DNA of 55,730 bases from Planctomyces sp. (lineage in GTDB: Bacteria; Planctomycetota; Planctomycetia; Planctomycetales; Planctomycetaceae), in assembly GCA_005798445.1 (NCBI GenBank), contig SYJG01000518.1, forward strand, positions 1 through 55,730, written 5' to 3'. The notes under the pieces are model-generated. The model saw only the letters and a program-made list of their open reading frames with translations. It was not told the DNA's origin and searched no databases. This document shows positions 11,829-32,402 of the stretch, in pieces (positions within the stretch are counted from its first letter, which is position 1; every line of letters begins with the position of its first letter). The position numbers were made by a program, and so were the translations under genes.

Positions 11829-13022
11829 ATGCCTGCCGCACATCACGTCATTACCGACGTCGCTCGCCAAATCTGGCACGACGACTTTGAATTGTCGGGA
11901 GCCTCGCTGCCACTCAACGGCTCCAACAATTGGTCCGTCCGTCAGCGGCGGCTGCGCGGCGGGCTGTCCGATGGCGTGGACGTCGTCGAGATCGACAACG
12001 GGGCTTTGAAGTTGGAAGTCCTGCCGACTCGTGGCATGGGCGTGTGGCGCGGAAACTTTCAGGGCATCCCGATCGGCTGGGACTCGCCGGTGAAAATGCC
12101 GGTGCATCCCGCCTTCGTGAATCAGACCGAGCGAGGTGGACTCGGCTGGCTGGCGGGCTTCAACGAGTTGATTTGCCGTTGCGGCCTCTCGTTCATGGGA
12201 CCGCCCGGTTGCGATGCGGATTTTGAAGATCACCCGATCCTGGGCGAGCTAACGTTGCACGGCAAGATCGCGAACCTGCCAGCGCATCGCGTCGAAGTGA
12301 CCATCGATCCCGACCAACCGGGCCGCATCGCGGTGACGGGCATCGTCGATGAGTGCTCGATGTTCGGCCCCTGCCTGCGACTCACCTCAACCATCGAGAC
12401 AACGATCGGCTCGAATCACTTCACGATCAGAGACGAAGTCACCAACCTCTCCGCGAAGCACGCTGAGTTCGAGATGCTGTACCACACGAACATCGGCCGT
12501 CCGTTCCTCGAAACCGGATCGCGGTTCTTGGCTGCGGCCCGTGAAGTCAGTCCCCGTGATGCTCGCGCGGCCGAAGGAGTCGATACCTACGACAAGTACG
12601 CCGCCCCTGACGCCGCCTACGCCGAACAAGCGTACTTCTTCCGCCTGGTCGGTGACGCTCAGCAGCGAGGTCTGGTTGTGTTGCGCAATGCCTCCGGCGA
12701 TCTCGCGCTCAGCCTCAGGATGTCATTGGCAGAGTTGCCCTGCTTCACGCTTTGGAAAAACACAGCCGCCGAAGCGGACGGCTATGTGACCGGCCTCGAA
12801 CCCGGCACGAACTTCCCAAACCTGCGCAGCTTCGAGCGTGCTCACGGCCGCGTGCTTTCGCTGGCACCGGGAGCCAGCCGCCGGATGTCGTTTGAGTTGG
12901 CGATTCATCCAGATAAAGCGTCGGCCCAACAAGTGGCCGAGGAAGTTCAAAGCCTGCAGCGCAGCACAACCGTCGCGATGTCGTGGGAACCGTTGCGAGA
13001 GTACTCACCGGTAGGCAAGTAG
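11829..13022 (+). CDS. DUF4432 family, aldose-1-epimerase-like protein
   Basis: A 397-residue cytoplasmic protein of the galactose-mutarotase superfold. Typical features are NGALKLEVLPTRGMGVWRG near residue 60, the KMPVHPAFVN region, LHGKIANLPAH near residue 140 and EMLYHTNIGRPFLE near 215. These resemble the mutarotase substrate pocket, but the physiological sugar is unknown. ATG 11829 follows TTGGAG; the upstream extension of the frame overlaps the palindrome and is unlikely to be coding. The antisense integrase frame of element A runs into the 3' end of this gene. Confidence 0.82.
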   Translation: MPAAHHVITDVARQIWHDDFELSGASLPLNGSNNWSVRQRRLRGGLSDGVDVVEIDNGALKLEVLPTRGMGVWRGNFQGIPIGWDSPVKMPVHPAFVNQTERGGLGWLAGFNELICRCGLSFMGPPGCDADFEDHPILGELTLHGKIANLPAHRVEVTIDPDQPGRIAVTGIVDECSMFGPCLRLTSTIETTIGSNHFTIRDEVTNLSAKHAEFEMLYHTNIGRPFLETGSRFLAAAREVSPRDARAAEGVDTYDKYAAPDAAYAEQAYFFRLVGDAQQRGLVVLRNASGDLALSLRMSLAELPCFTLWKNTAAEADGYVTGLEPGTNFPNLRSFERAHGRVLSLAPGASRRMSFELAIHPDKASAQQVAEEVQSLQRSTTVAMSWEPLREYSPVGK

Positions 13023-14664
13023 CACCGCCAAAAGAGTTTGATTGAAGCCTGTGAGTTCGATTGCCGACTCTATTGACGCGACTTGGGTGCGGACTAGAAT
13101 CCCGCCCGCCTGAGCCCCAGCAGATTCCTATTCCGATTAAATCCAAGGGGCCGTAGCTCAATTGGTTAGAGCGCCGGACTGTCGATCCGGAGGTTACGGG
13201 TTCGAGTCCCGCCGGCCTCGCTGAAGGAAACCCCGCTAAAACTTCGTGTTTTGGCGGGGTTTTCTGCATTTCTGGCGACTCATCGGAACCGGGGATCGAG
13301 GCGGCTGATAACCATTCAAAAGAGCCGTTTTCGGCAGGTCGTGTGCAACTTTTTGTGCAACTGAAATCGGCAGCGTCATCCGTGGTGTCGGCGGCTCGCA
13401 TCGTTTGCGATTCTGGAGCGGCGATGGTCGGCAGCGATCCGAGCGCCGAGTTCATGTCGATCAGCCCCAAATGCGTGTAGCGGTCCATCGTCAGGGTGAT
13501 GGTCGAGTGCCGAGCCAGTTGCTGGGCGAGCTTCGGATGGACTCCGCCAGCCGCGAGGTTGCTGATGAAAGTATGCCGCAGCGAATGAAAGTCGGCGATG
13601 CCGTCATCGGTGACGTAGGGAATCCCCGCCGCTTCCAGATCATTGCGGAGCATCTTGTACGCTCGCTCTGTCCACGTTCCCGGAAAGAGAAGCTCTTGCT
13701 TCGCGTCTGCCGCACGATCGAATGCCAGGACGGCTCTTTGTTCGTCGGCAACGTGCTCGCGATTTGAGAGCCACTGACGCAATCGAGCGGCCAAGTCGGG
13801 ATGCAAGGGCAGGACATCTTCGCGGCGATGTTTCGAGTACGCGGCTTCCAGGGTGACGGTCGGCACGCCAGCGGCAAGGTCGAACGATGCCGAAGTCAGG
13901 CTGGCGAGTTCACTGGCTCGCAGTCCGGTCATCGCGGCCACGCGGTACAGCATCGCCCGCGTTGCCCCATTCAGCCCCCGGAATGTTACTTGGCTTTTCC
14001 CGGTCTCAGCAATCAGCCCGGCCAGTTCGTTGGGTGAAAGTGCGCGGCGTTCGTGGCGGACATCGACACGACCATTCAGCCGAGACAAGTGAGCGAACGG
14101 ATTCTCCGGCCCCCGTCGATCCTTCACGAGCCAATGACCGAACGACTTCACCGCAACCAAATAGTGATTGCTGCTCGCGACACTCAAGCCGGCGATGACG
14201 TTTCCATCTTTGTCCGTCTTCGGTTTACGACGATCTGCCAGCCAGCCGGAGACTCTGCCCGCGTTGAGGTCGCACAGTTTTCTGAACTTGCAACCGTCGA
14301 CCACAGCCGAAAGACGTTGAACCGTCAACGTGACGTGTGCGGCGGAGTTGCCTTTCGATTCCAGCAACGAACGGAAGTCTTCAACGTGCTCGGCTAGTGG
14401 CCGCTCGCGATGATCTTCAAACGGGTCGATGTCACCACGTTTGATCCGTTGCGCTCGTTGCTTCATCGCGGCCAACATTACTTCGGCGGCTTGCTCGTCA
14501 TCGCACAAGGCGACTGGACGAGGCTTGCCATTCGCGTCGGCCACGCGGCCCCAAAAGGTTTTCGACTTTTTACGGACACGCCTTGCTCCGAGTGTCCCCT
14601 TCGGGACTTGTTGGCCTTTGGTGTTGATGTAGCGAATGATCGTCGGGCGATAGGTTCCGGACAT
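12745..14664 (-). CDS. int: tyrosine recombinase/integrase of element A
   Basis: Site-specific recombinase expected to insert and excise element A at tRNA-Asp. It has an N-terminal arm/SAM-like domain (about residues 60-185) and a catalytic domain (about 205-415). The active-site series is present: Arg in MTGLRASEL, HSLRHTF, the His of LARHST, and Tyr in MDRYTHLG. The frame does not stop after the catalytic domain. It runs through the terminator and the tRNA in antisense (GLEPVTSGSTVRRSNQLSY) and ends inside the DUF4432 gene, so about the last 170 of 639 residues come from host DNA. The start at 14664 follows the HTH gene by 6 bases. Confidence 0.88.
   Translation of the reverse strand: MSGTYRPTIIRYINTKGQQVPKGTLGARRVRKKSKTFWGRVADANGKPRPVALCDDEQAAEVMLAAMKQRAQRIKRGDIDPFEDHRERPLAEHVEDFRSLLESKGNSAAHVTLTVQRLSAVVDGCKFRKLCDLNAGRVSGWLADRRKPKTDKDGNVIAGLSVASSNHYLVAVKSFGHWLVKDRRGPENPFAHLSRLNGRVDVRHERRALSPNELAGLIAETGKSQVTFRGLNGATRAMLYRVAAMTGLRASELASLTSASFDLAAGVPTVTLEAAYSKHRREDVLPLHPDLAARLRQWLSNREHVADEQRAVLAFDRAADAKQELLFPGTWTERAYKMLRNDLEAAGIPYVTDDGIADFHSLRHTFISNLAAGGVHPKLAQQLARHSTITLTMDRYTHLGLIDMNSALGSLPTIAAPESQTMRAADTTDDAADFSCTKSCTRPAENGSFEWLSAASIPGSDESPEMQKTPPKHEVLAGFPSARPAGLEPVTSGSTVRRSNQLSYGPLDLIGIGICWGSGGRDSSPHPSRVNRVGNRTHRLQSNSFGGATCLPVSTLATVPTTSRRLCCAAGFELPRPLVGPTLYLDESPTQTTSGGWLPVPAKARGREHARSCAGLGSSCRVRGRSHSRPLRRLCFSKA
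13073..13100 (+). promoter_or_regulatory. sigma-70-type promoter of tRNA-Asp
   Basis: TTGACG (13073-13078) and TAGAAT (13095-13100) are 16 bases apart and end 46 bases before the tRNA. Both boxes are one or two changes from consensus. This is the only promoter-like pair I see in the 124 bases before the tRNA. Confidence 0.6.
13147..13220 (+). tRNA. tRNA-Asp (anticodon GTC)
   Basis: A complete 74-nt cloverleaf. The acceptor stem GGGGCCG/CGGCCTC has one G-U pair, the D arm contains AGCTCAATTGGTTAGAGC, the anticodon stem CCGGA/TCCGG holds loop CTGTCGA, and the T arm is ACGGG-TTCGAGT-CCCGC. The discriminator base is G and CCA is not encoded. The 3' part is the attachment site of element A, and copies recur at 26538 and 36796. 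Confidence 0.95.
13228..13262 (+). terminator. intrinsic terminator after tRNA-Asp
   Basis: A 15-bp stem (AAACCCCGCTAAAAC with GTTTTGGCGGGGTTT, one G-U pair) encloses loop TTCGT and runs into TTTTCT. It lies inside the element, so the element supplies a new terminator to the tRNA. A near-identical copy is at 36852-36886. Confidence 0.9.
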
Positions 14665-14931: not shown

Positions 14932-16296
14932 TCAAGATTTCGTCTCGGCTTCAAAAGTGCCGCGATACCGAAATCGACTCGCGCGTGCTTTTTTCTGAGT
15001 GCCCTTAGCGACCAGTTCGATAACGCCTTCCATCTCCAAGAGCTTCAGCCAGCGTGATCCGGTGCTTGGATTGACTGAAAAGTATTCCGCCACCGTGCGA
15101 ACCGACAGATAGAAGGGTGCCTCACCACGCGCTCGTTGCAGTTCACGACATAGAGCCGCGAGTCGTTTCAGCGGTTCCGATTCGTAGTGGCGGACGCACT
15201 CAGGTGGATCAGCGGCAAATGCGCGTTCGACAATTTCAGCCATTGGCTCTTCGCCTTTCGGGTATTTGACGCGGGGCCAAGCGTGGATGAAATCAGTCCA
15301 AGTTTCCTCGAATGCCTTTGTCGTGATGTACGGCTTTGCTAGTTGGTGCCAACGCCTCACCAGCGGTTGAAGCTGGTCAAAGCTGGCGTCGCAAAATTCG
15401 GGCAGAGCCTTCAGCGTGCGAGCCAGGTCAAACACTTTGTTGTTTCGCTGTCCCGCACACGTCGGCAACGTAGACCGAATTGCCGAGTCGAGCACGCAAT
15501 CTATTGTCACGTCCTCGCCAGACGACTGCGTGGCATCGACGTCTCGGCCAGGAGTCGGTGGTTTGGTCGGCAACTTACCGACTTTTAGTTTTGGCTTCCG
15601 TTTCGACTTATCGCCTTCTGTTGTCCTTTTTCTGTTCTTCGTGCCAGAAGACGAGGGGCACGTCCCAGAAGTCTCGGAACTACCACCAACCACAAGCACG
15701 CTCATGGCTTCTGTGCTCTCCGTCCTCTCCGTTGCATGAAGGTAAAATCCAGACTCAGAAACGGTCAGCAAGGGGATCGTCCCACCAAAAGGCGACACGA
15801 TCCAGCGGTAGATGAATCCACTCGGATGCCGACTCGGTGGGAGAACGGAGTAGCAGCCCACTCCGACCCGCAGTTCGCCGCCGTCGCAGCGAATCGCCCC
15901 GGTCCCACCCGCCTTGCCGATACTTCGGCGGAACGCGGCCACATCGTCGCGAGCGAAGCGGCAATAGACGTGACGCCCGCGACTCGTCTCGACAGTCGGC
16001 AATATTTTGGCAAGTTCGGGATGTTCGACCGCCCACCGTTGATAAATAGCTAGGTCATCGAAATCACGACTCGCAAGCCCGCCAGAGATCTCACCAAAGA
16101 TCGCCGCCAAGCCGTAGTCGCTTTTGCCGTCGAACCACTCGGCGAGTCGCTTTCCATCCGGTCGATGTTTTTGGAAGGGCTTCCAGCGAACGGCAGGCGG
16201 CTTCTTTTTTTTCACGTCGTTTATGTCGCCTGTCTTCATTGGGATGATGCACCAGCCCAAGGCTGAGTATTCGAGCGCGTTCTTAAGAGTCACCAC
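14932..16296 (-). CDS. prim-pol type replication protein of element A
   Basis: A 454-residue protein whose first 190 residues resemble the bifunctional DNA primase/polymerase domain of plasmids and phages. The early LGWCIIPMKTG, the acidic motif SRDFDDLAIYQRW, the GRHVYCRF segment and CDGGELRVGVGCYSVLPPS match its usual order. A Ser/Thr/Lys-rich linker (about 205-255) leads to a C-terminal part with a winged-helix look (TVAEYFSVNPSTGSRWLKLL, near 415), perhaps for origin binding. It probably initiates replication of the excised element. The start overlaps the end of the upstream small gene by 7 bases. Confidence 0.75.
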   Translation of the reverse strand: MVTLKNALEYSALGWCIIPMKTGDINDVKKKKPPAVRWKPFQKHRPDGKRLAEWFDGKSDYGLAAIFGEISGGLASRDFDDLAIYQRWAVEHPELAKILPTVETSRGRHVYCRFARDDVAAFRRSIGKAGGTGAIRCDGGELRVGVGCYSVLPPSRHPSGFIYRWIVSPFGGTIPLLTVSESGFYLHATERTESTEAMSVLVVGGSSETSGTCPSSSGTKNRKRTTEGDKSKRKPKLKVGKLPTKPPTPGRDVDATQSSGEDVTIDCVLDSAIRSTLPTCAGQRNNKVFDLARTLKALPEFCDASFDQLQPLVRRWHQLAKPYITTKAFEETWTDFIHAWPRVKYPKGEEPMAEIVERAFAADPPECVRHYESEPLKRLAALCRELQRARGEAPFYLSVRTVAEYFSVNPSTGSRWLKLLEMEGVIELVAKGTQKKARASRFRYRGTFEAETKS

Positions 16297-16552: not shown

Positions 16553-17587
16553 TCAGTTTGTGGCGGTTGGTAGCGAATGGCTAGATTTCACCGCCAGCGA
16601 GGGATTGAATCGCATCCCGTCATGCTTTGAGGCTTGGATCAGCTTCGCCAGTTTCGGACATTTCTTTTTGAGAGATTTCAGTTTGTCCGATGGCTTCACG
16701 CCGTCCAGGTCGTCACCGCCGTGTGTCATGTAATCGGCGGGACGAATCCATTTGTCAGGATGTTCGGCCAATACCTTGAGCCAGCGAGCAACGCCCTCGC
16801 TAGGCAGGTCAGCCGTGTCTCCAACATTACCAATGCGCAAAGTGGCACTTCGTGTCTGTACATTGACTTCAAGTGTGACCACAGCCGGTGCCGTTGGCGG
16901 TTCGATGGTTGATTTTGTTGGCAGCGAGCCTGCCTTCGTCTTTGGATTGGCAGGCGGCAATTGCTTTGGATCGTCAATGAGTGGCGCAAGCACTTTCGGT
17001 TCGAGTTGCTGATCCAGAAACGAGGGGGCGAGTTCACCCATGTATTTGCCAACAAGTCGGGAAGCTAAGTCCAGGACACACTCTTTGAAGAGCGGGACAC
17101 GTTCGTTGAAGGGTGAGACACCCTTTTTGACGACCGGGACGCCTTCGTTGAAGAGCCGGATAAGCTCAGTGTCATCCTCCCCACCAAGCATCGCCTCGAA
17201 AACATCTTTCTCATCGCAATCCGACAGCGCATCGACCAGACGCCTTGCGACGTCATTCGGTAAACGTGACATCGCATCCCGCAGCAAACCGATGCCCTTT
17301 TTTGAGAAGTCTTCCTCCGACATCCCAGGATGCTTCTGCCGAGCCTCACCTCTGGCCGCAAGTAGCGCAAAATAAATGTGGCACAGTTCATTGATGGGGC
17401 GTTCGAGCTTCTCTTGTTCGGCCTTTGCTATTTGGTCTGCTTTGGCATTGGCCTCACTCTCGGCCTTTGCTTTTTTCTGTTCGGCCTTTCGCTTGGCCAC
17501 GCGCTCTTTACGTTTCTTTTGCCATTCGTTTGTCACAGCAGGATTCTTTCTTCTCATCCCGTCGGAAGCGATCGCACGTTCGGGCAT
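16553..17587 (-). CDS. hypothetical protein with basic coiled-coil N-terminus
   Basis: A 344-residue protein of unknown function. Residues 15-65 are a Lys/Glu/Ala-rich helix, probably a coiled coil. The middle contains short degenerate repeats (FNEGVPVVKKG, FNERVPLFKE) near residues 145-175. A linker rich in Pro and Thr (about 205-240) follows, then a C-terminal region with a possible winged-helix shape (VARWLKVLAEHPDKWI). It heads the minus-strand replication cluster of element A and is divergent from the cargo operon. It may start at the internal Met 11. Confidence 0.55.
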   Translation of the reverse strand: MPERAIASDGMRRKNPAVTNEWQKKRKERVAKRKAEQKKAKAESEANAKADQIAKAEQEKLERPINELCHIYFALLAARGEARQKHPGMSEEDFSKKGIGLLRDAMSRLPNDVARRLVDALSDCDEKDVFEAMLGGEDDTELIRLFNEGVPVVKKGVSPFNERVPLFKECVLDLASRLVGKYMGELAPSFLDQQLEPKVLAPLIDDPKQLPPANPKTKAGSLPTKSTIEPPTAPAVVTLEVNVQTRSATLRIGNVGDTADLPSEGVARWLKVLAEHPDKWIRPADYMTHGGDDLDGVKPSDKLKSLKKKCPKLAKLIQASKHDGMRFNPSLAVKSSHSLPTATN

Positions 17588-17821: not shown

Positions 17822-18031
17822 ATGGAACTTCATGAAATCGAGGTCTTCATTGACTCGACCGGCAATGTGCAATTGGAGGTCCGGGGCGTGAAAGGCAGGA
17901 GATGCCTGGACCTGACAAAGCAATTAGAGGCAGTGTTGGGTGGTGAGGTGCTCGACCGGAAAATGACTTCGGAGGCGAATGAGTTAGGCGGCGAGGTTGT
18001 CCACGATCAACAGCGGGTTGGCGAAAGATGA
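17822..18031 (+). CDS. DUF2997 protein (first gene of cargo operon)
   Basis: A 69-residue protein of the DUF2997 type. It has a short beta strand start (MELHEIEVFIDSTGNVQLEV), the Gly-Val-Lys-Gly-Arg-Arg-Cys patch and a helix with LTKQLEAVLGG. The biochemical function of the family is unknown. Its genes are known to me as companions of DUF1257/Ycf35 genes, and that partner is present 4.4 kb downstream. AAAGGA lies 9 bases before ATG 17822. The stop overlaps the next start (ATGA). Confidence 0.75.
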   Translation: MELHEIEVFIDSTGNVQLEVRGVKGRRCLDLTKQLEAVLGGEVLDRKMTSEANELGGEVVHDQQRVGER

Positions 18032-18612
18032 GCGCTTCGGCGGGGGAATGGTTGCGAATTCATGCGTTCGTACCGGAGAGCTATGCGAACGGGCCGGGGC
18101 GGAGAGCAGTGGTTTGGGTTCAAGGGTGCTCGCTGGGATGCCCTGGTTGTTTCAATCCAGCGACGCATTCGTTGACGTATGGCCGAGTGGTCCTCGTAGA
18201 TGAATTGTTTTCGGACATCGCTGCGCTGACCGAGCGGGTTGAGGGGCTGACGCTAAGCGGTGGTGAGCCGTTGCAACAGCGACGCGGCGTGCTTGCGCTA
18301 CTGCGACGTATTCGTTGTGAAACTTCCCTGTCGGTGGTGGTTCTTACGGGCTATTCATGGGAAGAGTTTCTGTCGTTTCCCGAATCAGACGAGTTGTCAA
18401 AGTTGGTAGATGTTGTGATTGCTGGCCGTTACGAATCCTCTCGAAATCTCGCGTCATCGCTGCGAGGCTCCGCTAACAAGACGGTTCATCGAATCACGAA
18501 TCGTTATCAATCATCAGACCTGCAAGATGGTCCTGCTGCCGAAGTCATTATTTCCGAAACCGGCGACTTGATTTCCACAGGCATCAAACCAGTTCTGTTC
18601 AAAATCGTTTAG
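18028..18612 (+). CDS. radical-SAM activase-like 4Fe-4S protein
   Basis: A 194-residue protein resembling NrdG and other organic-radical activating enzymes. The cluster motif CxxxCxxC is intact (GCSLGCPGC, about residues 31-39) and the SAM-binding GGEP follows (LTLSGGEPLQQ, about 73-83). These enzymes make a 5'-deoxyadenosyl radical and usually install a glycyl radical on a partner. No glycyl-radical enzyme is encoded nearby, so the substrate is unclear and may be another product of this operon. Translationally coupled to DUF2997 by ATGA. Confidence 0.85.
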   Translation: MSASAGEWLRIHAFVPESYANGPGRRAVVWVQGCSLGCPGCFNPATHSLTYGRVVLVDELFSDIAALTERVEGLTLSGGEPLQQRRGVLALLRRIRCETSLSVVVLTGYSWEEFLSFPESDELSKLVDVVIAGRYESSRNLASSLRGSANKTVHRITNRYQSSDLQDGPAAEVIISETGDLISTGIKPVLFKIV

Positions 18613-18630
18613 TTTCAGGTGGCTGATTTC

Positions 18631-20781
18631 ATGCCTGATAAACGCCCCGTTCCATCAGGGGGAACTCCGCCAGATGCAATTGGTCTCTTGGAGCGGCGCG
18701 ACGCAATTGACGCAATGGCGAAAAATGGGACACCAGAGGTTGTCACGATACTGGTCCAAGCCATTGAGACGTTGAAGGATGATCAGATTCACGATTTCTG
18801 CAAAAAGGCTCTGAGGAATTTGGAACTTCCTTCGGCAAGAGACGAGTTGTGTCGCTTGGTCATCGAAGAAGACAATCAGGTTGCGAGAGCGATTGCCCTT
18901 GAAGCGAAATTTGCCCCGACGGATGAATTCCATCGTGCCTTATTCTTCTTCATCACATTTCAGTGGGCTGAATACGAAGCCCTCGATTTCGATGCGCGTC
19001 TCATTCGGCTCGCCTACCGCACGGCGAACGAAACCGTCAAAGCTCGCGTTGCAGCAACAGCTCGTTCAGCGGGCCGGATGGAATGGTTAGGGATCGTCTC
19101 AGACGGCAGACCGTTGCGATCGGTGAGCGACCTGACGGACAAGGATTGGGAGACGACCGTTGACGTGCTTGTCAATTCCGAACGTTGGAAGGAATTGTGG
19201 CAGTTAGCTCAAGAAGCCCCGGCTAAGTGGAGCGTTCAGTTGCTGAAGCGGTTTCTACAATCGGGGGCACGCTGGCGACCGAATGGGACATTAGCAGAGA
19301 GCCGCTTTCAGGAATTGCTTTGGCTTGCGGACAAATGCCAGCTAACGATTGGCAAAGCGAGATTACGAAAAAACCTTGGTGGTCACACGAAGGGCGTGAA
19401 CTGTTTGGCGTTTACGCCGAATTCAGAATTGCTTGTGACTGGTGGCGGTCGTGGTGACGGAAATTTGAGGTTTTGGAAAACGAGCACTGGAAAGCTTGTT
19501 GAGACAATTGGGTTTCCCAAAACTCTGTCCGCTTTTGATTCTCAATATAATTCGAGAAGTATCAATCGTCTGGTAATCAGCCCTGACGGCGGCTTTCTCA
19601 CTAGCGGAAACGGCAGCAACTACGCGGATGGAAGCAAAATCCATTTTTGTCAACTTGGCGGAAAACGGCGAGATCGCATTAAGCTTCGCGATTGTCCTGA
19701 ATCATTTTCTGGCTCCGATGTTTTGCTGCTTGAAACGACACAAAATGGTTCGACTGCAATCAGCGGTGATTGCCGTGGACGAATCGAATTGTGGAACGTA
19801 GCTGACTGCCGTATGGTCAGGTCATTTCAAGCACATTCTGGCGACATCAAATGCCTTAAAGTCATGCCAGATGGGGACGTGTTTGTCAGCGTCGGGCGAG
19901 AGGGAGCAATTCGATTCTGGAGCATTTCAGATCCGCAACACGTTTGGACGCGGAATCGGCTCGTGTCTCTCTCCAGTTCACTGTTTCATTTCATTGAACA
20001 AAGCCCTATTCGGTTTCTCAGAGCGATCACGGAATTCCTTTGCAAGAACATTTGCGGTATCACCAAAGTCGATTCGTTAGCTCTGAGTCCTGAAGGGGAT
20101 GTCGTCGCGACTGGCATGGAGGATGAGACGATTCGTTTATGGAACGCCACCGACGGGAAGTTGCGGACCAGACTGAGAAGCACGACACGTTTCACGCATT
20201 GGCTTCAACGGCTTCTGGGGCGTGTGGCCTCCATCGAATGCCTCGCAGTGACACCGGATGGGCAGATACTTGTGAGCGGAAGTCGTGATGGCAAAATCCG
20301 GTTCTGGTCGATTTCCGAGGGGCGTTTGTTGCGTACTCTTGATGCGCATTCGTCGGCAGTCTCCTGTTTTGCAGTGGCCCCGAATGGACGTCTCTTGATA
20401 AGCGGAGGCCGGGATAAGACCGTTCGGATTTGGAGTTTTCCGGATGGCAGGTTGATTCAAAATCTTGAGGGATATTCTACTTGCCTCGCGATCAGCCCGG
20501 ATGGCCAACTTCTGGCGATCGGGGATGGTGCCGAAAAGCACGTTGAGTTGTGGGAGCTACCTTCGCTGCCGATTACAAAGAAGCCGGTGCGGCGGATCAC
20601 CTCGGAGGAATTGGCAGAACTGGAATTGGCTTTAAAAAACCAGTCCATTGAAAGTAACGAGCGTCATTGGTTCGAGTTTCTAGTGTTGATGGTCCGCTGG
20701 AACCAAAGATTTGATTTGGAAGTCAGCGACATCTCCAGCCATGTCTCTGTTGGGCCGTTCGACATTGAGATCAGCGTCTAA
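18631..20781 (+). CDS. HEAT-like/WD40 repeat scaffold protein
   Basis: A 716-residue protein with two parts. The first 230 residues are helical with HEAT-like repeats (for example AMAKNGTPEVVTILVQAIET). The rest is a beta propeller of about six or seven WD40 blades, such as HTKGVNCLAFTPNSELLVTG, DIKCLKVMPDGDVFVSVGRE, IECLAVTPDGQILVSGSRDG and AVSCFAVAPNGRLLISGGRD. No signal peptide is seen, so it is likely a cytoplasmic docking protein. ATG 18631 has AGGTGG 8 bases upstream; GTG 18619 in the same frame is an alternative. It follows the radical-SAM gene closely. Confidence 0.82.
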   Translation: MPDKRPVPSGGTPPDAIGLLERRDAIDAMAKNGTPEVVTILVQAIETLKDDQIHDFCKKALRNLELPSARDELCRLVIEEDNQVARAIALEAKFAPTDEFHRALFFFITFQWAEYEALDFDARLIRLAYRTANETVKARVAATARSAGRMEWLGIVSDGRPLRSVSDLTDKDWETTVDVLVNSERWKELWQLAQEAPAKWSVQLLKRFLQSGARWRPNGTLAESRFQELLWLADKCQLTIGKARLRKNLGGHTKGVNCLAFTPNSELLVTGGGRGDGNLRFWKTSTGKLVETIGFPKTLSAFDSQYNSRSINRLVISPDGGFLTSGNGSNYADGSKIHFCQLGGKRRDRIKLRDCPESFSGSDVLLLETTQNGSTAISGDCRGRIELWNVADCRMVRSFQAHSGDIKCLKVMPDGDVFVSVGREGAIRFWSISDPQHVWTRNRLVSLSSSLFHFIEQSPIRFLRAITEFLCKNICGITKVDSLALSPEGDVVATGMEDETIRLWNATDGKLRTRLRSTTRFTHWLQRLLGRVASIECLAVTPDGQILVSGSRDGKIRFWSISEGRLLRTLDAHSSAVSCFAVAPNGRLLISGGRDKTVRIWSFPDGRLIQNLEGYSTCLAISPDGQLLAIGDGAEKHVELWELPSLPITKKPVRRITSEELAELELALKNQSIESNERHWFEFLVLMVRWNQRFDLEVSDISSHVSVGPFDIEISV

Positions 20782-20914
20782 ACCATTCCTTGGTCCGCTC
20801 TCATCAAGATGTTGTGTGTGACATTTCAGCGATATGCTGACGTTTCGGCAGCAGCGGTGAGTTTTCCGGTCGCTCCAGCACGGTTGCAGTGACCGCCAAT
20901 TGAAAGGGAGCCTC

Positions 20915-22441
20915 ATGGCGCTTGATCGAGATTTGGACGTTTATCTGCGTGCTCGATTCACCTTAATAGTTTTGCAGACCACCGAAGAAGAACGCGCAAT
21001 TCAGATCATCAAATCTGTTTGTGAGAGCGCCAAGCGACCGTGTCTTTTGTGGGACGTAGCGGACGGATTTCAAGTTCAGTGCGGCACAGCGTCACCCCCT
21101 ACGGCTCGTGACCCTGTTACGGCGTTGGAGCACATCGACAAAGTGGATGGAAACGCCGTCTACGTGTTGCGAGATTTCCACGACTGCTGGAAAAACGAAC
21201 TGGTGAAACGCAAACTCCGTAGTGTTGCCCAGCGGCTAAAGACAACGAAGAAATCCATCGTCGTCACCACGCCGACGAACTCGGCCCCAGAGGAATTGAA
21301 GGACGAATCATTCATCGTCGAATTATTGCATCCAGGTATTACTGAGTTGGATCAAGTACTGAATCAACTGACTCAAGTGCCCGGTGTGAAAATGAATCTT
21401 ACCTCGCTGGGCAGGGAAAAGTTGTTGAAGGCGGCATTGGGACTGACGATATCTCAAGCGCAGCGAGTCTTTGCAAAGGCCATTGTCTCACGCGGGGCAT
21501 TAGACGACCGAGATATCGGCTTGGTCACAGAAGAGAAAAAGCAAATCATTCGCGAAAGTCGTTCGCTGGAATTCTTCGCCGTTACAGAAACCCCTCAAGA
21601 CATCGGTGGCCTCGGCGTGCTGAAAGAATGGCTGAGACTTCGCGAACAAGCCTTCACGGAGGATGCACGCAGCTACGGACTCCCGGCCCCGAAAGGAATT
21701 GCCTTGATCGGGATTCCAGGAACAGGAAAAAGTCTCACTGCCAAGATGATTGGCGGACTTTGGCGGCTACCGCTGCTGAGACTCGACGTTGGATCACTCT
21801 TTGGCAGTCTGGTCGGTGAATCGGAAGAACGAACGCGACAGGCTTTGCACATCGCAGAAACGGTGGCTCCCTGCGTGTTGTGGATCGACGAATTGGAAAA
21901 AGCGTTCGCCGGTGGCGGATTGGATGGCGGTACAAGCATGCGCGTCTTTGGCTCAATTTTGACTTGGATGCAAGAAAAAACAGCCCCATGCTTTGTCGTG
22001 GCGACCGCCAACAACATCTCACAACTTCCGCCTGAACTTCTGCGGCGAGGACGGTTCGACGAGATCTTCTTCCTCGATTTGCCGACCAGCGCCGAGAGAC
22101 AAGAAATTTTTGCCGTTCATCTCAAGAAACGCAAAAGGCTGATTCAAGACTTCGACGTTGTTGCACTGGCGAATGCGTCTCAAGGCTATGTGGGGGCAGA
22201 GTTGGAACAGGCCATCGTCGATGCGATGTATCTGGCCTTCAACGACAGACGACGCGAATTCAATACGGGCGATATTCTGCAAGCCATCGCTCGCCAAGTG
22301 CCGTTGTCCGTTTCGTCCCGCGAGACCATCGAGTTCCTTCGGAATTGGCTTCGGGAAGGACGAGCACAATCGGCCTCATTTCAAGAAGCGAGAGACGCAG
22401 TCGAGCAATTCGTGCCATTACAACTGGAACTGGACCACTGA
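20915..22441 (+). CDS. Ycf46-like AAA+ ATPase
   Basis: A 508-residue ATPase whose N-terminal half (about 1-215) has the degenerate domain of Ycf46-type proteins (plastid and cyanobacterial homologues are conserved but little understood). The C-terminal half is a classical AAA module: Walker A GIPGTGKSLTAKMIGG (about 269), Walker B CVLWIDELEKAF, sensor VVATANN, arginine finger LLRRGRFDEIFFLDLP and a small helical lid. All catalytic residues are present, so it should hydrolyse ATP and remodel a protein partner. ATG 20915 has AAAGGGAG just upstream. A 133-base gap separates it from the WD40 gene. Confidence 0.88.
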   Translation: MALDRDLDVYLRARFTLIVLQTTEEERAIQIIKSVCESAKRPCLLWDVADGFQVQCGTASPPTARDPVTALEHIDKVDGNAVYVLRDFHDCWKNELVKRKLRSVAQRLKTTKKSIVVTTPTNSAPEELKDESFIVELLHPGITELDQVLNQLTQVPGVKMNLTSLGREKLLKAALGLTISQAQRVFAKAIVSRGALDDRDIGLVTEEKKQIIRESRSLEFFAVTETPQDIGGLGVLKEWLRLREQAFTEDARSYGLPAPKGIALIGIPGTGKSLTAKMIGGLWRLPLLRLDVGSLFGSLVGESEERTRQALHIAETVAPCVLWIDELEKAFAGGGLDGGTSMRVFGSILTWMQEKTAPCFVVATANNISQLPPELLRRGRFDEIFFLDLPTSAERQEIFAVHLKKRKRLIQDFDVVALANASQGYVGAELEQAIVDAMYLAFNDRRREFNTGDILQAIARQVPLSVSSRETIEFLRNWLREGRAQSASFQEARDAVEQFVPLQLELDH

Positions 22442-22471
22442 ACGAATCTGGTCGCTAATGGGGATGAATGG

Positions 22472-22879
22472 ATGTCGCACTTCACGACAATCAAGACTCA
22501 TATTGTGGACTCAAAAGCCCTCATAGCAGCCCTCAACGATGTTGGCTTCAACGAAGTCGAGGTTTTCGACAAGGCCCAGCCGTTGATTGGTTTCGGAGGC
22601 ACTTCGCGCCAGCAAGATGCAGAAATCATCATTCGCAAGAAAGTCGTCGGCAGTTTATTTAGTGACCTTGGTTTCAAACGCGGTGGTGATGGCACGTTCG
22701 ACGCGATAATGGACGACTACGATGCCAAAAAGTATTCGCGAAAGTGGTTCGACCAACTGACGCAACGATACGCCTACCATGCGACGAAGGCAAAACTTGA
22801 GGCGCAGGGCTTTTCGCTAGTCGCTGAGGAAAAAGGAGATCGTGGGCAGATACATTTGGTTCTGCGCCGGATGAGTTGA
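22472..22879 (+). CDS. DUF1257 (Ycf35-like) protein
   Basis: A 135-residue protein with the full DUF1257 pattern: MSHFTTIKTHIVDSKALIAA at the start, a middle IGFGG segment, DAIMDDYDAKKY and the closing YAYHATKAKLEAQGF. Plastid Ycf35 belongs here. The function is unknown. It lies 30 bases after the Ycf46-like gene, and both families are old plastid-conserved reading frames, so their pairing supports a joint role. No membrane segment or catalytic motif is visible. Confidence 0.88.
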   Translation: MSHFTTIKTHIVDSKALIAALNDVGFNEVEVFDKAQPLIGFGGTSRQQDAEIIIRKKVVGSLFSDLGFKRGGDGTFDAIMDDYDAKKYSRKWFDQLTQRYAYHATKAKLEAQGFSLVAEEKGDRGQIHLVLRRMS

Positions 22880-22998
22880 CGGTTCTTTGATGTTGCGGCC
22901 ATAAGAAAAGAGGTAGCTGTGACCGACTAGGGATGCGCTGAATCACGATGCGCGAGGACGGGCTTGTAGTGGCAACACGGCGACTTGAGGACGTTGGC

Positions 22999-23529
22999 AT
23001 GTGGGGATGGTTAAAATCGCTGTGGAGTTCACCGCAAATTGCCCGCCAAGACGTGAACCTTGAAGACGCCAAGCTCTCTTGGGATGCCGAACGGCGAACA
23101 CTGCAACTTGAGTTGGAGGAACAACAACGACGACTCATTGCTCTCTCGCGGGATTTAGAGACGCTTCGGAGCCGTGCAGCAAGTGACGTTCAAGAGCGAG
23201 TCGATTCATTTGTCGTGAAGCTAATGACTGAAGCTGCCGGGCCAATTTCACAATTACTGATGCAAACTCACGCGATTGAAAAGCAAGGACTGCCTGTCGC
23301 CGTCCGTGACGTGTTGGTCATCGCTAACCGGTTGATTCGAGTCTTTGAAGATGCCGGATTGACCCGCGAAGGCAGCATTGGAGACGAACAACTGTTTGAC
23401 GCTGACTGGCATCAGCCCATTGGCGATGGGGACTTTCAAAAAGATGAACCTGTCATCGTCCGTTTTGTCGGCTTGAGTTATGCGGGCCAGTTGTTGAGGT
23501 CGGCGAGCGTCGAGCGGAAAAAGGACTGA
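22999..23529 (+). CDS. GrpE-like nucleotide exchange factor
   Basis: A 176-residue protein with GrpE architecture. A long N-terminal coiled coil (about residues 18-62) leads to a helical middle and a C-terminal beta domain (about 125-165) with LFDADWHQPIGDGD, the counterpart of the GrpE FDPxxHEAV region. GrpE proteins release ADP from Hsp70, and an Hsp70-like gene starts 3 bases downstream. ATG 22999 (MWGWLKSLW) has GAGG 8 bases upstream; the frame is open from 22948. It is divergent from housekeeping GrpE, suggesting a dedicated pair. Confidence 0.78.
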   Translation: MWGWLKSLWSSPQIARQDVNLEDAKLSWDAERRTLQLELEEQQRRLIALSRDLETLRSRAASDVQERVDSFVVKLMTEAAGPISQLLMQTHAIEKQGLPVAVRDVLVIANRLIRVFEDAGLTREGSIGDEQLFDADWHQPIGDGDFQKDEPVIVRFVGLSYAGQLLRSASVERKKD

Positions 23530-23532
23530 GCG

Positions 23533-25164
23533 ATGCCAGGACGCCTTGCCGTTGATTTCGGGACGTCGAATACCGTCGTTGCCGTCTGGGACGAATCTCT
23601 TGGCGAGGGCGTGCCGTGGCATCTCGCAAAGTTGGGAAAGTGGACGAACGCCATCTCACTCGAAGAAAAGCCGCCCGACAAGACGGGTGAGGCAATTTCG
23701 GTCATCCCTTCGCTCATTCACTACTCATCAGACACTCGCGCTTGCTTGGGACGACAAGTTTGTGAGCGGAGCCTAGAAGATTCCGCGACGTCCTTCCGGT
23801 GGATGAAACGCTACATCGCCAACCGCAGTCCTGTCACACGTCAGGTTCATGGACGGCAAGTTTCAAATTCGCAAGCTGGCAGTGATTTCCTGCGTCTCAT
23901 ACTGGCGACCGCGAAGGCCGAATTGAGTTTGAACTCGAATGACGAAATTGCGCTGACCGTACCCGTTGAAGCTTACGAGCACTATGAAGATTGGCTGGCT
24001 GAAGTTGCGAGAACCGCTGGATTCAGACGGTATCGCCTCATTGACGAAGCGTCAGCGGCAGCGTTGGGCTACGGGACTCACATACAACCCGGACACGTCT
24101 ATGTCGTCTTTGATTTCGGCGGGGGGACTTTGGATGTCTCGGTCGTCTTAATCGAAGACTCCGAAACCGCTGCCACCGGACGCCGCTGCCGAGTGCTCGG
24201 TAAAGCGGGCCATGATCTTGGAGGTAGCTCCATTGACCAATGGCTATTTGCGGACGCGATCCGCCAGAGCAACCGTCGGGATTTTGATAATGACGTGCGG
24301 GCTATGAGTCGGCAGTTACTTGGCGAATGCGAACTGGCAAAGATCGCTTTGTCTCAAAGACAGAAAGCCGATGTCACGATATTGAACCCTCAGACCGGAG
24401 CTATCGTTGTCGCGGCTGAATGGACACGCAGTCAATTTGAGGAATTACTCGACAAGCACGATGCGCTCACTGAGATTGACAAAACGATCCGCCGAGCGCT
24501 GAACGATGCTCGTGAGAAAGGCTACTCCGACGAGCAAGTGCGGAATGTGCTGCTTGTCGGAGGAGGCAGCTTGATACCCTGTGTTCAGCAAATGCTGCAA
24601 CGCATTTTCGGCAAAGAAAAAGTCCAATTGAATCGTCCACTTGATGCAGTTGCACGAGGCGCTGCAGCGTTCATTGCCGGGGTCGATTTTTACGATCACA
24701 TCCAGCACGATTACGCCTTGCGTCACCGAGACTCAAGCACTGGAGAAGAGTCCTTTCACACAATCGTCCAGCGGGGAACCCCATATCCCACCAAAGAATC
24801 GGTCGCAAAACTGACGATCCGAGGCTCATTTGACGGACAGGAGCAACTTGGCCTTGCGATCTTTGAACTCGGCGAATCCCGTCAGCACATCAAAGCAGGT
24901 GGAACGCTTGAATTGGTTTATGATTCGTCCGGGAACGCTCGCATTACGGCAGTTTCTTTTGAGGATGAAGACCGCCGAAACCATTTTTGGTTGAATGAAG
25001 ACAACCCCACATTTCTCAAGGCTGATCCGCCAACGCAGAAAGGGCAGCCCCGCTTTCTGATCGAGTTCGGTGTCGATGGCAACAAGCGTCTGCTAATCAC
25101 CGTCCGCGATATTCTGGCTAATCGGCTGATCCATCGGGATTTGCCCGTTGTCAAACTAACCTGA
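23533..25164 (+). CDS. Hsp70-like chaperone
   Basis: A 543-residue Hsp70 relative. The actin-like nucleotide-binding domain has phosphate-1 LAVDFGTSNTVVAVWD (about 5), phosphate-2 VVFDFGGGTLDVSVV (about 193) and the adenosine-site VLLVGGGSLIPCVQQML (about 338). A substrate-binding beta domain follows from about residue 400 (RGTPYPTKE). The C-terminal helical lid of DnaK (about 100 residues) is absent, which should loosen peptide trapping. No J-domain gene is encoded in the operon. It is the last gene of the cargo operon, 3 bases after the GrpE-like gene. Confidence 0.87.
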   Translation: MPGRLAVDFGTSNTVVAVWDESLGEGVPWHLAKLGKWTNAISLEEKPPDKTGEAISVIPSLIHYSSDTRACLGRQVCERSLEDSATSFRWMKRYIANRSPVTRQVHGRQVSNSQAGSDFLRLILATAKAELSLNSNDEIALTVPVEAYEHYEDWLAEVARTAGFRRYRLIDEASAAALGYGTHIQPGHVYVVFDFGGGTLDVSVVLIEDSETAATGRRCRVLGKAGHDLGGSSIDQWLFADAIRQSNRRDFDNDVRAMSRQLLGECELAKIALSQRQKADVTILNPQTGAIVVAAEWTRSQFEELLDKHDALTEIDKTIRRALNDAREKGYSDEQVRNVLLVGGGSLIPCVQQMLQRIFGKEKVQLNRPLDAVARGAAAFIAGVDFYDHIQHDYALRHRDSSTGEESFHTIVQRGTPYPTKESVAKLTIRGSFDGQEQLGLAIFELGESRQHIKAGGTLELVYDSSGNARITAVSFEDEDRRNHFWLNEDNPTFLKADPPTQKGQPRFLIEFGVDGNKRLLITVRDILANRLIHRDLPVVKLT

Positions 25165-25391: not shown

Positions 25392-26036
25392 TCAGCTACC
25401 TTTGGCGACCGGGCTAAGACTGTAGCACAGCATTTGAACCGCTTGCTCGCGAGTGATTCGGCCTCTCATCATGTCGCGGAGGATTCGCTTTCTACAACGG
25501 CTAGGATGATCGGTCGCTCTATTGATGGCCTTGAAATTCAAGGAAATCTGCCAAGCCGGTAGGCCCGCGTTCCCAAGCATCTCGTCGATTCGGCGGAGAT
25601 CGCAACTCAACTCGTCAACCCGTGCATCGTGTTCGTGAGCCGACCGGTGAATCAGTCTGTGGCAATGTCGGCAACCGAACTGGCTGGCCCACGACGGCAG
25701 ATAGAGGCAGCGAACCCGCTGCAAGCATGTTCCCGCCGGGCCACGATGCGGACAGAGAAACCATCGCCGGCAGCCGCCAAGGAAGCACTCTGACGCGACA
25801 ACGGAGATCGTCTTTTGAAACGACCGAAGCGAATCCTTAAACGAAAGGGTCACGGCAGTCTCGGTCGTCAGGTAGTCGGCCTCAGCAAGCCGAGATTGAT
25901 TTTGTCCCCACGTCATATCCCAAGTCAGTTGTCCGAACGCTCCTGGCCGAAAGACACCAAGCCGCCGCATGTCGCTCGCGTCGAGCTTGAGGGCGTCTTC
26001 AACAAGTCCAAGTGAAGGCTTTCCGCGTCTTCGCAT
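25392..26036 (-). CDS. hypothetical zinc-ribbon-like protein at element A right end
   Basis: A 214-residue protein of unknown function. Residues 85-135 hold several Cys and His (FLCPHRGPAGTC, RVRCLYLP, FGCRHCHRLIHRSAHEH) that could bind zinc. The C-terminus is helical and basic. I have the impression of similar unnamed proteins near planctomycete integrases, but cannot name a family. It is convergent with the cargo operon and in the same orientation as the two small genes at the element edge. Confidence 0.55.
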   Translation of the reverse strand: MRRRGKPSLGLVEDALKLDASDMRRLGVFRPGAFGQLTWDMTWGQNQSRLAEADYLTTETAVTLSFKDSLRSFQKTISVVASECFLGGCRRWFLCPHRGPAGTCLQRVRCLYLPSWASQFGCRHCHRLIHRSAHEHDARVDELSCDLRRIDEMLGNAGLPAWQISLNFKAINRATDHPSRCRKRILRDMMRGRITREQAVQMLCYSLSPVAKGS

Positions 26037-26537: not shown

Positions 26538-26596
26538 GGTTAGAGCGCCGGACTGTCGATCCGGAGGTTACGGGTTCGAGTCCCGCCGGCCTCGCT
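26538..26596. repeat. attachment repeat att2 (3' part of tRNA-Asp)
   Basis: This 59-bp segment matches the intact tRNA-Asp from the D loop to just past the discriminator base. The 5' half is missing, so it is not a functional tRNA. It is the junction between elements A and B and contains the stop codon of the second integrase. Confidence 0.9.
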
Positions 26597-28333
26597 TGTG
26601 AAACGCTCGCTGCTAGTCGTTAGCAGCGAGCGTTTTTCGTTTGATGCCATGACGTTGTGACCGAGCAAGTTTTCGGAGTCGCCGACACTCGGAAATGCGT
26701 TCAAGGTGACAGCCGTTGACTGCGAAACACTCGAAAAGTCAGTCGGAACTGCCACCAGAACTGCCACGGCAGATGGCGTGAACGTTTCCGCTCCGGCCGC
26801 AATGCGTTGGCGGTTGTCGTTCGGTTCCGACGTTGTGGAAATCTGAGGTAGCGACTCGACCGCCCCTTGCACGTCCAGCAATCGCGGGTCGGTGTAGACG
26901 TTCATCGTCAGGTCGATGCTTGAATGCCGCATCGCGGCTTGAGCAACGCGGGGAGCGACTCCAGCCATGCTCAACATCGTGCCGAACGTGTGCCGCAAGG
27001 CGTGAACGTCAATTGTGCGGCCTCGGTCATCACGTTTCGGGATACCGGCCGCTTTCAAGTCGCGGTCGAGAATCTTGCAGAACGCATCCGGAACGTTGAG
27101 CAGCGGCGTTGAGGCAGGGCGTTCGACCGGGACAGCATCGCGGCGAAAAGTGAGCACGTCCGCCAAGCCAGTTGCACGATCGAACAATCTCGACACCCAC
27201 CCCCGCAAGTCGTCGGCCACGTCTTGGCGAAGCGGGATCGAATTCCCCTGCCGGTTCTTTTCGTCGGCCGCGTTTAACCGGACATGCGGACAATCCGCGT
27301 CGAGGTCAAGTTGCCCAATGGTCAGCGAAGCGAGTTCGTTCTTTCGTAGCCCGGTCGTGACCGCCAGCTTGTAGACCAACTCCCGCTCTTGGCCGAGCCG
27401 TTCCTGTTGAGCGATGAACTCCGGGTTGTCTTTTAAGCGTTCGTGCGCACGACCGACCGCCGCGTTGAGTTCGTCGAACGTGAGCGGCTTGTACGTCCAG
27501 GACGCTCCACGTTTACGTTTGCCGCGTCCCGCTTCGGCGGTTGACTCCCGCGTCATGGTTTCGCGTCCGTACTCGGCCAGCGGTCGCAGGCGAGCCACGA
27601 TCAGCAAGTGGGACAACTCCGCCTCGGTCAGTGCTCTGCGTTGCCGGCGTCGGTCGGAGCGTTCGTCGGCCCGGTCGAGTTTCGCCAGCGGATTGAACGG
27701 CAGCCGGTCGCGTTCGACACACCAGTTGCAGAAACTCCGCAGTGCGATCAAGTAGGAATTACGAGTCCGCGCTCCCATCGCGGTCTTGCCCGTTTGTGCC
27801 TTCGATTGTTGAGCGAGCCAGCGTTCGACCGCTTCGGCTTGGATGTTGGACAGTCTGCGCAAATTCAATTCGTCGATGACTCGTTGAATCAGTCGCTCGG
27901 TTCCCGTGACGTGAGACTCCGCCCGTCCGGCCGCTTGCATCGTGGCGATGAACTCGGCGAGATGATCGGCCAACGCAGTGTGCTGATGATCGGCCATCGC
28001 ATTCTCGGCGGTCGTGATGATGCCCGACCGTACCTTTTCGGCTCGCTTCTCAAGTCCAGCCAGCACCGCCCGCGCCGCCGTTTCGTCTTTGCAGCCCGTG
28101 GCAACACGACGGAGATGCCCGTTGCCGTCCCGGTAGTCGGCGAAAAACGTCGGCGTCTCGACAACGATGCGTTCCTGTCCGATGAACTTTCCTTCGGTCG
28201 GCACAACGACGGCAGCCGTCCGCGTTCGGCCTTTGGAGTCCTGCCACTTCGCCAGTCGTTGCCCTTTGCGGGAAAACAACTCAGCCCCGACCGGCAGCGG
28301 TTTCGTCGAGGTTCGTTTGAAGACGGTTCCCAT
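26540..28333 (-). CDS. int: tyrosine recombinase/integrase of element B
   Basis: A 597-residue recombinase. The N-terminal part (about 110-215) is the SAM-like DNA-binding domain. The catalytic part (about 235-510) shows TTGLRKNEL (Arg), HALRHTFG, the His of MRHSS, and Tyr in LTMNVYTDPRL. An insertion of about 60 residues between domain start and first Arg (near residues 255-320) makes it longer than the element A enzyme, to which it is only distantly similar. The last 20 residues (EAGGTRTRNLRIDSPAL) are antisense tRNA-Asp and the stop is within the tRNA D-loop sequence. Confidence 0.88.
   Translation of the reverse strand: MGTVFKRTSTKPLPVGAELFSRKGQRLAKWQDSKGRTRTAAVVVPTEGKFIGQERIVVETPTFFADYRDGNGHLRRVATGCKDETAARAVLAGLEKRAEKVRSGIITTAENAMADHQHTALADHLAEFIATMQAAGRAESHVTGTERLIQRVIDELNLRRLSNIQAEAVERWLAQQSKAQTGKTAMGARTRNSYLIALRSFCNWCVERDRLPFNPLAKLDRADERSDRRRQRRALTEAELSHLLIVARLRPLAEYGRETMTRESTAEAGRGKRKRGASWTYKPLTFDELNAAVGRAHERLKDNPEFIAQQERLGQERELVYKLAVTTGLRKNELASLTIGQLDLDADCPHVRLNAADEKNRQGNSIPLRQDVADDLRGWVSRLFDRATGLADVLTFRRDAVPVERPASTPLLNVPDAFCKILDRDLKAAGIPKRDDRGRTIDVHALRHTFGTMLSMAGVAPRVAQAAMRHSSIDLTMNVYTDPRLLDVQGAVESLPQISTTSEPNDNRQRIAAGAETFTPSAVAVLVAVPTDFSSVSQSTAVTLNAFPSVGDSENLLGHNVMASNEKRSLLTTSSERFTSEAGGTRTRNLRIDSPAL
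26601..26635 (+). terminator. intrinsic terminator beside att2
   Basis: A perfect 15-bp stem (AAACGCTCGCTGCTA with TAGCAGCGAGCGTTT), loop GTCGT and a T tract. Its sequence differs from the terminator beside att1 and att3, but it sits at the same distance from the tRNA segment, so element B has its own tRNA terminator. Confidence 0.9.
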
Positions 28334-28348
28334 CGTGTTGCCCTTCGT

Positions 28349-29356: not shown

Positions 29357-29364
29357 GAGATAAG

Positions 29365-29760: not shown

Positions 29761-29787
29761 GGTCGCGTTCTCTTTCTGTTTCTGAGA

Positions 29788-29907: not shown

Positions 29908-29908
29908 G

Positions 29909-31257: not shown

Positions 31258-31268
31258 GCTGTCCCCTT

Positions 31269-32391: not shown

Positions 32392-32402
32392 GTTCGCCCC
32401 TC

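Follow-up and report, generated by a model that had tools for sequence, protein, structure and literature searches.

A seven-gene operon joining AAA, DUF1257 and DUF2997 proteins with a divergent Hsp70/GrpE pair recurs across phyla and may encode a redox-linked remodelling machine

A contig of 55,730 nucleotides from Planctomyces sp. (SYJG01000518.1, GenBank assembly GCA_005798445.1), referred to in its whole length as the window, carries an operon of seven genes for a DUF2997 protein, a small radical-SAM protein, a WD40 propeller protein, an AAA ATPase, a DUF1257 (Ycf35 family) protein and a divergent GrpE/Hsp70 pair (Table 1). We found that these families recur together across phyla and that the AAA, DUF1257 and DUF2997 genes form the core of the set. 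In our reading, to which we give a probability of a little under 40%, the products form one redox-linked chaperone/AAA remodelling machine with variable recognition by the propeller, and its mobile copies are likeliest used against invading elements or the stress these cause. To our knowledge Ycf35 and Ycf46 have no settled function, though many plastids retain both. The operon and the recurrence of its core tie DUF1257 to a Ycf46-like AAA protein, to DUF2997 and often to an iron–sulfur (Fe-S) partner, and may thus offer a route to the function of these plastid proteins.

The operon and its products

All seven plus-strand open reading frames (ORFs) are present at 17822-25164, with spacings of −4, 6, 133, 30, 68 and 3 nt, in agreement with the original prediction, made from the sequence alone, of co-directional genes that are tightly spaced or overlap. 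The predicted families were also recovered: DUF2997, radical-SAM, WD40, AAA, DUF1257, GrpE and Hsp70 were all matched in Pfam, and the scores of all seven proteins exceed the curated cut-offs. Only the HEAT repeats claimed for the propeller protein are not among the Pfam matches listed (25 of 51); a conserved region that looks repeat-like makes up its N-terminal part (216 profile matches in 114 ORFs). The ATG at 20915 is the best choice for the start of the AAA gene, and the AlphaFold2 model of the DUF1257 protein reached a mean predicted local distance difference test score of 91.0. The G+C content of the operon is 0.52–0.54 versus 0.57–0.62 in most of the remaining window, which has a second low stretch (0.54–0.56) at 32–36 kb.

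The chaperone pair scored far under the curated NCBIfam cut-offs (Hsp70 126.5 versus 648 for DnaK; GrpE 21.3 versus 184), so that the names DnaK and GrpE do not apply in the strict NCBIfam sense. The radical-SAM protein shares the CX3CX2C motif and the domain with the activases NrdG and PflA. However, it stays below the NCBIfam cut-off for NrdG (TIGR02491, 111.1 versus 126.1), and Pfam gave no match to NrdD or a glycyl-radical enzyme in the operon, so that the protein does not qualify as an NrdG activase either. The AAA protein, which may be of the Ycf46 type, is by its profile matches themselves a CDC48/FtsH-type AAA. Within its family the P-loop pattern is found in the C-terminal part of 134 of 159 members and in the N-terminal part of 2. 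Near-full-length relatives with 43–47% identity were found in three cyanobacterial genomes. The protein also resembles the AAA domain of the IetAS defence system (PADLOC, 78.4 bits, limited to the AAA part), but the protease IetS is matched by none of the seven proteins and an IetAS identity was rejected.

Recurrence of the seven-gene set

Related loci were collected by a scan with the AAA protein alone. The census covers the best 80 of at least 505 relatives by AAA similarity and is therefore biased to this AAA clade; many of its contigs stem from metagenome-assembled genomes (MAGs) and are possibly misbinned, and 38 of the 80 loci have less than 19 kb of sequence. Thirteen loci contain all seven families and 17 more contain all but GrpE. 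The complete sets belong to six Chloroflexota, three Streptomyces, an Acidimicrobiia MAG, Glycomyces, a planctomycete MAG and a Thermaerobacter MAG, and their Hsp70 proteins share 50–60% identity. The sets without GrpE include those of isolates of Longilinea, Ornatilinea, Actinomadura, Dactylosporangium and Streptomyces as well as two Methanoregula MAGs, so that the hosts of full and near-full sets are Chloroflexota, Actinomycetota, one planctomycete, a Thermaerobacter MAG and Methanoregula. The propeller family, whose profile derives from a WD40 protein and might also pick up WD40 proteins that are unrelated, lies near the AAA gene in 67 of the 80 loci, DUF1257 in 50, DUF2997 in 43, Hsp70 in 43, the radical-SAM family in 41 and GrpE in 18; for the 42 loci with at least 19 kb the counts are, in the same order, 38, 32, 30, 31, 29 and 9. 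Almost all of these genes lie on the strand of the AAA gene (Hsp70 43/43, GrpE 18/18, radical-SAM 41/41, DUF2997 43/43, DUF1257 54/54, propeller family 110/112), while their order is shuffled and the content conserved across phyla.

Furthermore, each of the 15 pairwise comparisons among the six families other than the propeller shows correlated sequence distances (r = 0.59–0.89); none of 500 permutations was as high, and shared ancestry contributes to the correlation. The recurrence of the set that had been predicted was thus found, in 13 complete and 17 GrpE-less loci with near-complete co-direction. That the seven genes are chance neighbours without a functional unit is contradicted by the recurrence, the co-direction and the correlated divergence; nothing was found in favour of this explanation, which we regard as practically out of the question.

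Not every relative carries the set. In the AAA tree, loci with Hsp70, GrpE or propeller genes make up 71 of the 82 members of the largest clade in which they predominate (support only 0.65), and 3 such loci lie outside. The other 11 members include some short contigs or the split loci of Thermanaerothrix daxensis, where the AAA gene lies on one contig and Hsp70-DUF1257-DUF2997-radical-SAM-propeller on another (both kept; no GrpE detected). Five of them (L100, L103, L114, L119 and L130) have 12–21 kb without Hsp70, GrpE or propeller genes.

An inner triad of AAA, DUF1257 and DUF2997

DUF2997 was found in 60 of 392 genomes of the window's phylum. Among 87 loci centred on it, 83 have DUF1257, 76 the AAA gene and 72 all three, whereas the window-type radical-SAM family is present in 7, the propeller family in 4, Hsp70 in 2 and GrpE in none. 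Because most of these loci have the triad and few have the other genes, the triad is the core and the seven-gene set is one elaboration of it, in which Hsp70/GrpE and the propeller proteins form an outer layer. The link between DUF1257, DUF2997 and the AAA protein that had been drawn for the window was borne out: the triad recurs alone, and in one viral contig (L299, 9660-10727) a single ORF of 355 amino acids contains DUF1257 at 185-294 followed by DUF2997 at 301-344. It is strongly supported that the three form one module.

Triads are accompanied by different genes. A protein of ∼320 amino acids that belongs to no Pfam family is common to 45 triad loci (41 of the 87), and 10 of the 11 loci with genes of a ubiquitin-like pathway carry it as well. 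This pathway, seen beside the triads at L149, L150, L164 and related loci, comprises ThiS-like, ThiF (L150), E2/RING-like and JAB-like genes; ThiF was assigned by Pfam, ThiS scored 20.5 versus a cut-off of 22.5, and the E2/RING-like and JAB-like genes were recognized by eye only, with no Pfam match. A second radical-SAM cluster is found at 14 loci (8 of the 87), one representative being confirmed by Pfam. At L018, L020, L027, L029 and L190 a radical-SAM gene different from that of the window (one member confirmed by Pfam) lies upstream of the triad, with unassigned genes and a gene judged pilT-like by eye downstream, and the order is alike in several genomes. The window's own assembly carries two further triads, L016 (C474) and L174 (C392), one with the second radical-SAM cluster and the other with the ∼320-amino-acid protein.

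The core also occurs on plasmids and phages. A Paenibacillus plasmid has the order AAA-DUF1257-DUF2997-radical-SAM, and in Rhizobium phage L338C (L230, 4836-8239) the AAA gene is followed by DUF1257 and DUF2997; in a Mycobacterium phage the AAA gene stands without DUF1257 or DUF2997 within the 11.5 kb read. Of 20 viral contigs with the AAA gene, 10 carry DUF1257 as well as DUF2997 in the stretch (these 10 include two near-identical pairs), and GrpE, Hsp70 and the N-terminal region of the propeller protein were detected in none of the 20 at E 0.001. The AAA, DUF1257 and DUF2997 proteins of the window each match a PHROG family of unknown function. Among cyanobacteria, HEC-02, a candidate defence pair of PADLOC, lies between DUF1257 and DUF2997 in two Pseudanabaena operons (L075, 4739-6303; L228, 10149-11722), and the triad of a Geminocystis plasmid is flanked by AbiL and SspB genes (PADLOC), with no chaperone or propeller gene in the stretch. 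On a Treponema succinifaciens plasmid (L231, 7351-9506) a radical-SAM–AAA pair is embedded in a contractile injection system, with VgrG and baseplate genes around it. The latter arrangement, together with the triad of the Rhizobium phage and the small families in the viral contigs, would suit a machine for the assembly or maturation of a large partner complex, belonging to the element or to the host, such as contractile injection particles, in which the AAA and radical-SAM proteins mature a structural protein. However, the scanned ORFs of the window's element gave no structural-gene match and none is recurrent among 103 proteins flanking or inserted in related loci (the shortest 150 of 235 were kept and scanned without near-duplicates, so that proteins of up to ∼360 amino acids were covered), and we consider this explanation improbable.

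The operon as cargo of an integrative element

In the window the operon is part of an element of 13.4 kb, the ends of which are 59-bp copies of the 3′ part of tRNA-Asp. In 100 shuffles the 59-nt repeat had a mean of 0.00 chance matches with up to 3 mismatches allowed. Between the repeats the operon is the sole plus-strand cargo, as the original prediction had stated, and the genes for the integrase, the primase-polymerase (Prim-Pol) and two proteins without Pfam match all lie on the minus strand. None of 11 congeners has an Hsp70 of the window type; their best-scoring matches are ordinary Hsp70s with 29–32% identity, and for this reason the unit looks horizontally acquired in this genome. The operon is the only cargo on the plus strand of this small integrative element and might serve to stabilize it as a maintenance (addiction) module. 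Such a function is very improbable given seven genes with no toxin family among the Pfam matches listed, and given the constant chromosomal neighbour in nine Chloroflexota loci described below.

Divergence of the propeller protein

Paralogs of the propeller protein within one locus differ most in their middle, which is less conserved than both ends in 53 of 58 pairs from 22 loci (means 0.46, 0.34 and 0.43 along the protein). The test is conservative in that some of the N-terminal repeats may fall within the middle. Streptomyces and Actinomadura loci (L125-L135) carry about four propeller-family genes in tandem. Three of three Streptomyces members scanned had no Pfam match at E 1e-5, so that their middle may form a propeller of another kind or one that has diverged strongly. 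The end of the C-terminal tail shows, by eye, two DIEIG/FDIEIE-like stretches. The tail pattern was detected in 46 of 107 called genes of the propeller family, i.e. in less than half. The tail as a client tag shared with other proteins was rejected: the pattern occurs in 52 of 2624 called genes, and the 6 outside the propeller family look like chance.

The DUF2997 cysteine, iron–sulfur partners and a possible resident role

In DUF2997 both glycines and the cysteine of the motif G-x2-G-x2-C are nearly or fully invariant. The cysteine is present in 141 of 141 sequences, in every context (144 matches at E 0.001, of which three below 40 bits were excluded). The DUF1257 protein of the window contains no cysteine. 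In all three cyanobacterial genomes a ferredoxin-like gene, recognized by its cysteine motif, follows DUF2997-DUF1257; these genomes have AAA-DUF1257 pairs at other sites. The ferredoxin-containing arrangement reproduces the published cyanobacterial cluster g with DUF2997, ycf35 (DUF1257) and fed7 (PMC4284462). Cluster g shares the two small families and an Fe-S protein with the window operon, but AAA, chaperone, radical-SAM and propeller genes are absent from those clusters. Occurrence of the single genes in housekeeping contexts, which had been named as an observation that would speak against a dedicated seven-gene system, was hence seen in part, namely in the DUF2997-DUF1257-ferredoxin clusters and the separate AAA-DUF1257 pairs.

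The clusters favour a resident role in protein quality control, by which oxidatively damaged, perhaps Fe-S, proteins would be repaired or removed: ferredoxin or the radical-SAM protein would sense the redox state via DUF2997, and Hsp70 and the AAA protein would act on the client by refolding or extraction. The Synechocystis genes ycf35 and fed7 depend on SigD under standard conditions; ycf35 belongs to the SigD high-temperature regulon and is named among the down-regulated genes in the section on high light (PMC8875361). Among red-algal plastids, the occurrence of ycf34, ycf35, ycf46 and pbsA agrees with habitat (PMC5940233). A phylogenetic pattern is described in that study as well, and the agreement is therefore only suggestive of a connection between ycf35 and ycf46. 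The same gene is found within ∼4 kb upstream in nine Chloroflexota loci, mostly labelled Anaerolineaceae or their genera, which suggests a resident role there; presence in Methanoregula also fits. By eye this neighbour resembles aldehyde ferredoxin oxidoreductase and lies on the strand opposite to the AAA gene (L073, L077, L078, L080, L085, L090, L091, L092 and L106). However, the divergence and tandem paralogs of the propeller, carriage on an integrative element, on plasmids and (for the triad) on phages, and absence from the 11 congeners would be odd for housekeeping. We see quality control, as opposed to defence, as an alternative only a little less likely than our main reading.

Comparison with known systems

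Literature searches of openly accessible papers returned no publication that joins this seven-gene set, and the statement that no named system combines these families held within that scope. The nearest known kind is the FtsH ternary systems, for which a conflict role was predicted (Kaur et al. 2020, PMC7159879). According to that paper, a MoxR ATPase together with a vWA protein is their defining feature; their AAA protein has two FtsH-type domains, of which the N-terminal one is inactive, propeller domains are present, and they occur in planctomycetes and actinobacteria. A linked radical-SAM protein is thought to modify a separately encoded peptide in the simpler type, and ubiquitin-like conjugation genes are linked in the complex type. 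The window operon likewise has a radical-SAM gene (18028-18612; the family is also present in 41 of the best 80 AAA-centred loci), a CDC48/FtsH-type AAA and a propeller. In contrast, MoxR and vWA matches are absent among the 17 window proteins scanned, and neither is among the families listed (25 of 89) that match 2 of the 103 shorter flanking proteins of related loci. The operon also differs from the complex type in that it has no ubiquitin-like conjugation match, such genes being found beside sister triads. Its Hsp70/GrpE pair is not part of the description of the FtsH ternary systems, and Ycf46, DUF1257 and DUF2997 go unmentioned in the paper. Because the MoxR-vWA pair is absent from the window, the operon is, by that description, not a member. 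The GAP1-N2 GTPase systems of the same paper likewise have a private HSP70 and GrpE in a predicted conflict operon, but none of the seven window genes matches a GTPase.

Proposed mechanism and role

A remodelling machine would accord with variable recognition, chaperone gating, an iron–sulfur step and an AAA motor. The Hsp70/GrpE pair and the AAA remodeller would act together with DUF1257, DUF2997, the iron–sulfur enzyme and the propeller protein, which would select the target. The propeller, the divergence of which was observed, would recognize a foreign or damaged protein, and Hsp70/GrpE may keep the complex inactive and set a threshold for its action. The radical-SAM protein, or ferredoxin in the cyanobacterial clusters, would modify or reduce DUF2997 and so arm the complex, likeliest at its cysteine; the invariance of this residue and the linked Fe-S genes were observed. 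The AAA ring, with DUF1257 and DUF2997 as putative adaptors, would pull the propeller protein by its conserved C-terminal tail and unfold or dismantle the bound target.

Several observations weigh against this mechanism or against its use in conflict. The listed Pfam matches of the operon include neither a nuclease or protease nor any other killing effector, and the HPD motif of a J-domain partner occurs in none of the seven proteins. The N-terminal part of the AAA protein aligns with the AAA core in register but weakly (E 0.0026–0.16, probability ≤5.2%). The cysteine of DUF2997 is invariant also in triads without a radical-SAM gene in the stretch and therefore need not be the target of the radical-SAM protein. 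Fe-S partners are a minority among the triads of the window's phylum (7 of 87 with the window-type radical-SAM family, 8 of 87 with the second cluster), which weakens the redox step as a general feature. The constant Chloroflexota neighbour belongs here as well. Finally, the enrichment in islands that had been envisaged was not borne out: the flanks are mixed, no family matches more than 2 of the 103 flanking or inserted proteins, and no enrichment as in defence islands was seen in that sample.

Of the original proposal of a remodelling machine with a possible defence role, one recurring unit of seven families stood, with correlated distances for six of them. Judged from gene content and context, a conflict or stress system is most likely, and a role in defence is plausible but tentative. 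A role in conflict is favoured by mobile carriage, absence in congeners, propeller divergence and the cyanobacterial loci with PADLOC defence families, a role in stress or quality control by the mixed flanks, the constant Chloroflexota neighbour and the ferredoxin clusters. For the mobile copies we weigh conflict somewhat above housekeeping, and both may hold for one machine. If the immune reading were true, the operon would represent a conflict system with a private Hsp70/GrpE pair, an AAA protein and a diversifying recognition subunit, of which no example was found in print among openly accessible papers. A wider generalization appears less probable to us: the triad as an ancient redox-controlled remodelling machine of bacteria, archaea, phages and red-algal plastids, and the seven-gene form as a new immune or stress class. 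In the latter, a small cysteine protein would be armed by an Fe-S enzyme, with a threshold set by Hsp70/GrpE, and diversifying propellers would pass targets to the AAA protein by their conserved tails. Compact versions are found in named isolates (Streptomyces, Longilinea and a Pseudanabaena plasmid); one of the complete sets is that of S. spinoverrucosus NBRC 14228 (L096).

Neighbouring genes and the tRNA-Asp site

Table 1. Positions of the operon genes and of other features of the element in the window
Feature	Position	Strand	Remarks
Tyrosine integrase	12745..14664	-	PF00589 68.6 bits; 3′ end runs through tRNA-Asp
Left attachment repeat	13164..13222	+	59-nt perfect repeat; 3′ part of intact tRNA-Asp (13147-13221)
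Prim-Pol protein	14932..16296	-	PF09250 48.6 bits
Element ORF without Pfam match	16553..17587	-	
DUF2997 protein	17822..18031	+	69 amino acids; PF11211 57.1 bits; Cys28 in G-x2-G-x2-C
Small NrdG-like radical-SAM protein	18028..18612	+	Fer4_12 111.4, Radical_SAM 34.7 bits; CX3CX2C at Cys34/38/41
Propeller protein	18619..20781	+	GTG start; WD40 175.1 bits; conserved N-terminal region, WD40 propeller, C-terminal tail ending FDIEISV
AAA ATPase	20915..22441	+	PF00004 AAA 96.6, AAA_lid_3 29.2 bits; C-terminal part CDC48/FtsH-type, N-terminal part without P-loop
DUF1257 (Ycf35 family) protein	22472..22879	+	PF06868 62.3 bits, gathering score 22.2
Divergent GrpE	22948..23529	+	PF01025 30.3 bits
Divergent Hsp70	23533..25164	+	PF00012 133.4 bits
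Element ORF without Pfam match	25392..26036	-	
Right attachment repeat	26538..26596	+	Perfect 59-nt copy; overlaps 3′ end of second integrase (26540-28333, minus strand)

Beyond the right repeat the window contains, at 26538-32406, the second integrase, Fic/helix-turn-helix and DnaB-like genes. Since the repeat coincides with the 3′ end of the second integrase and the Fic and DnaB-like genes lie beyond it, these genes probably belong to a second, tandemly arranged element that uses this tRNA-Asp too. All 12 genomes searched within the genus, among them that of the window, have the gene that lies left of the tRNA. A tRNA-Asp with the same 59 nt was found in 4 of 9 congener stretches, two of these four being only ∼3 kb long. 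Downstream of it lie an integrase related to the second one of the window (two congeners), pieces of an integrase (one) or neither (one), and the site is therefore used by several integrating elements.

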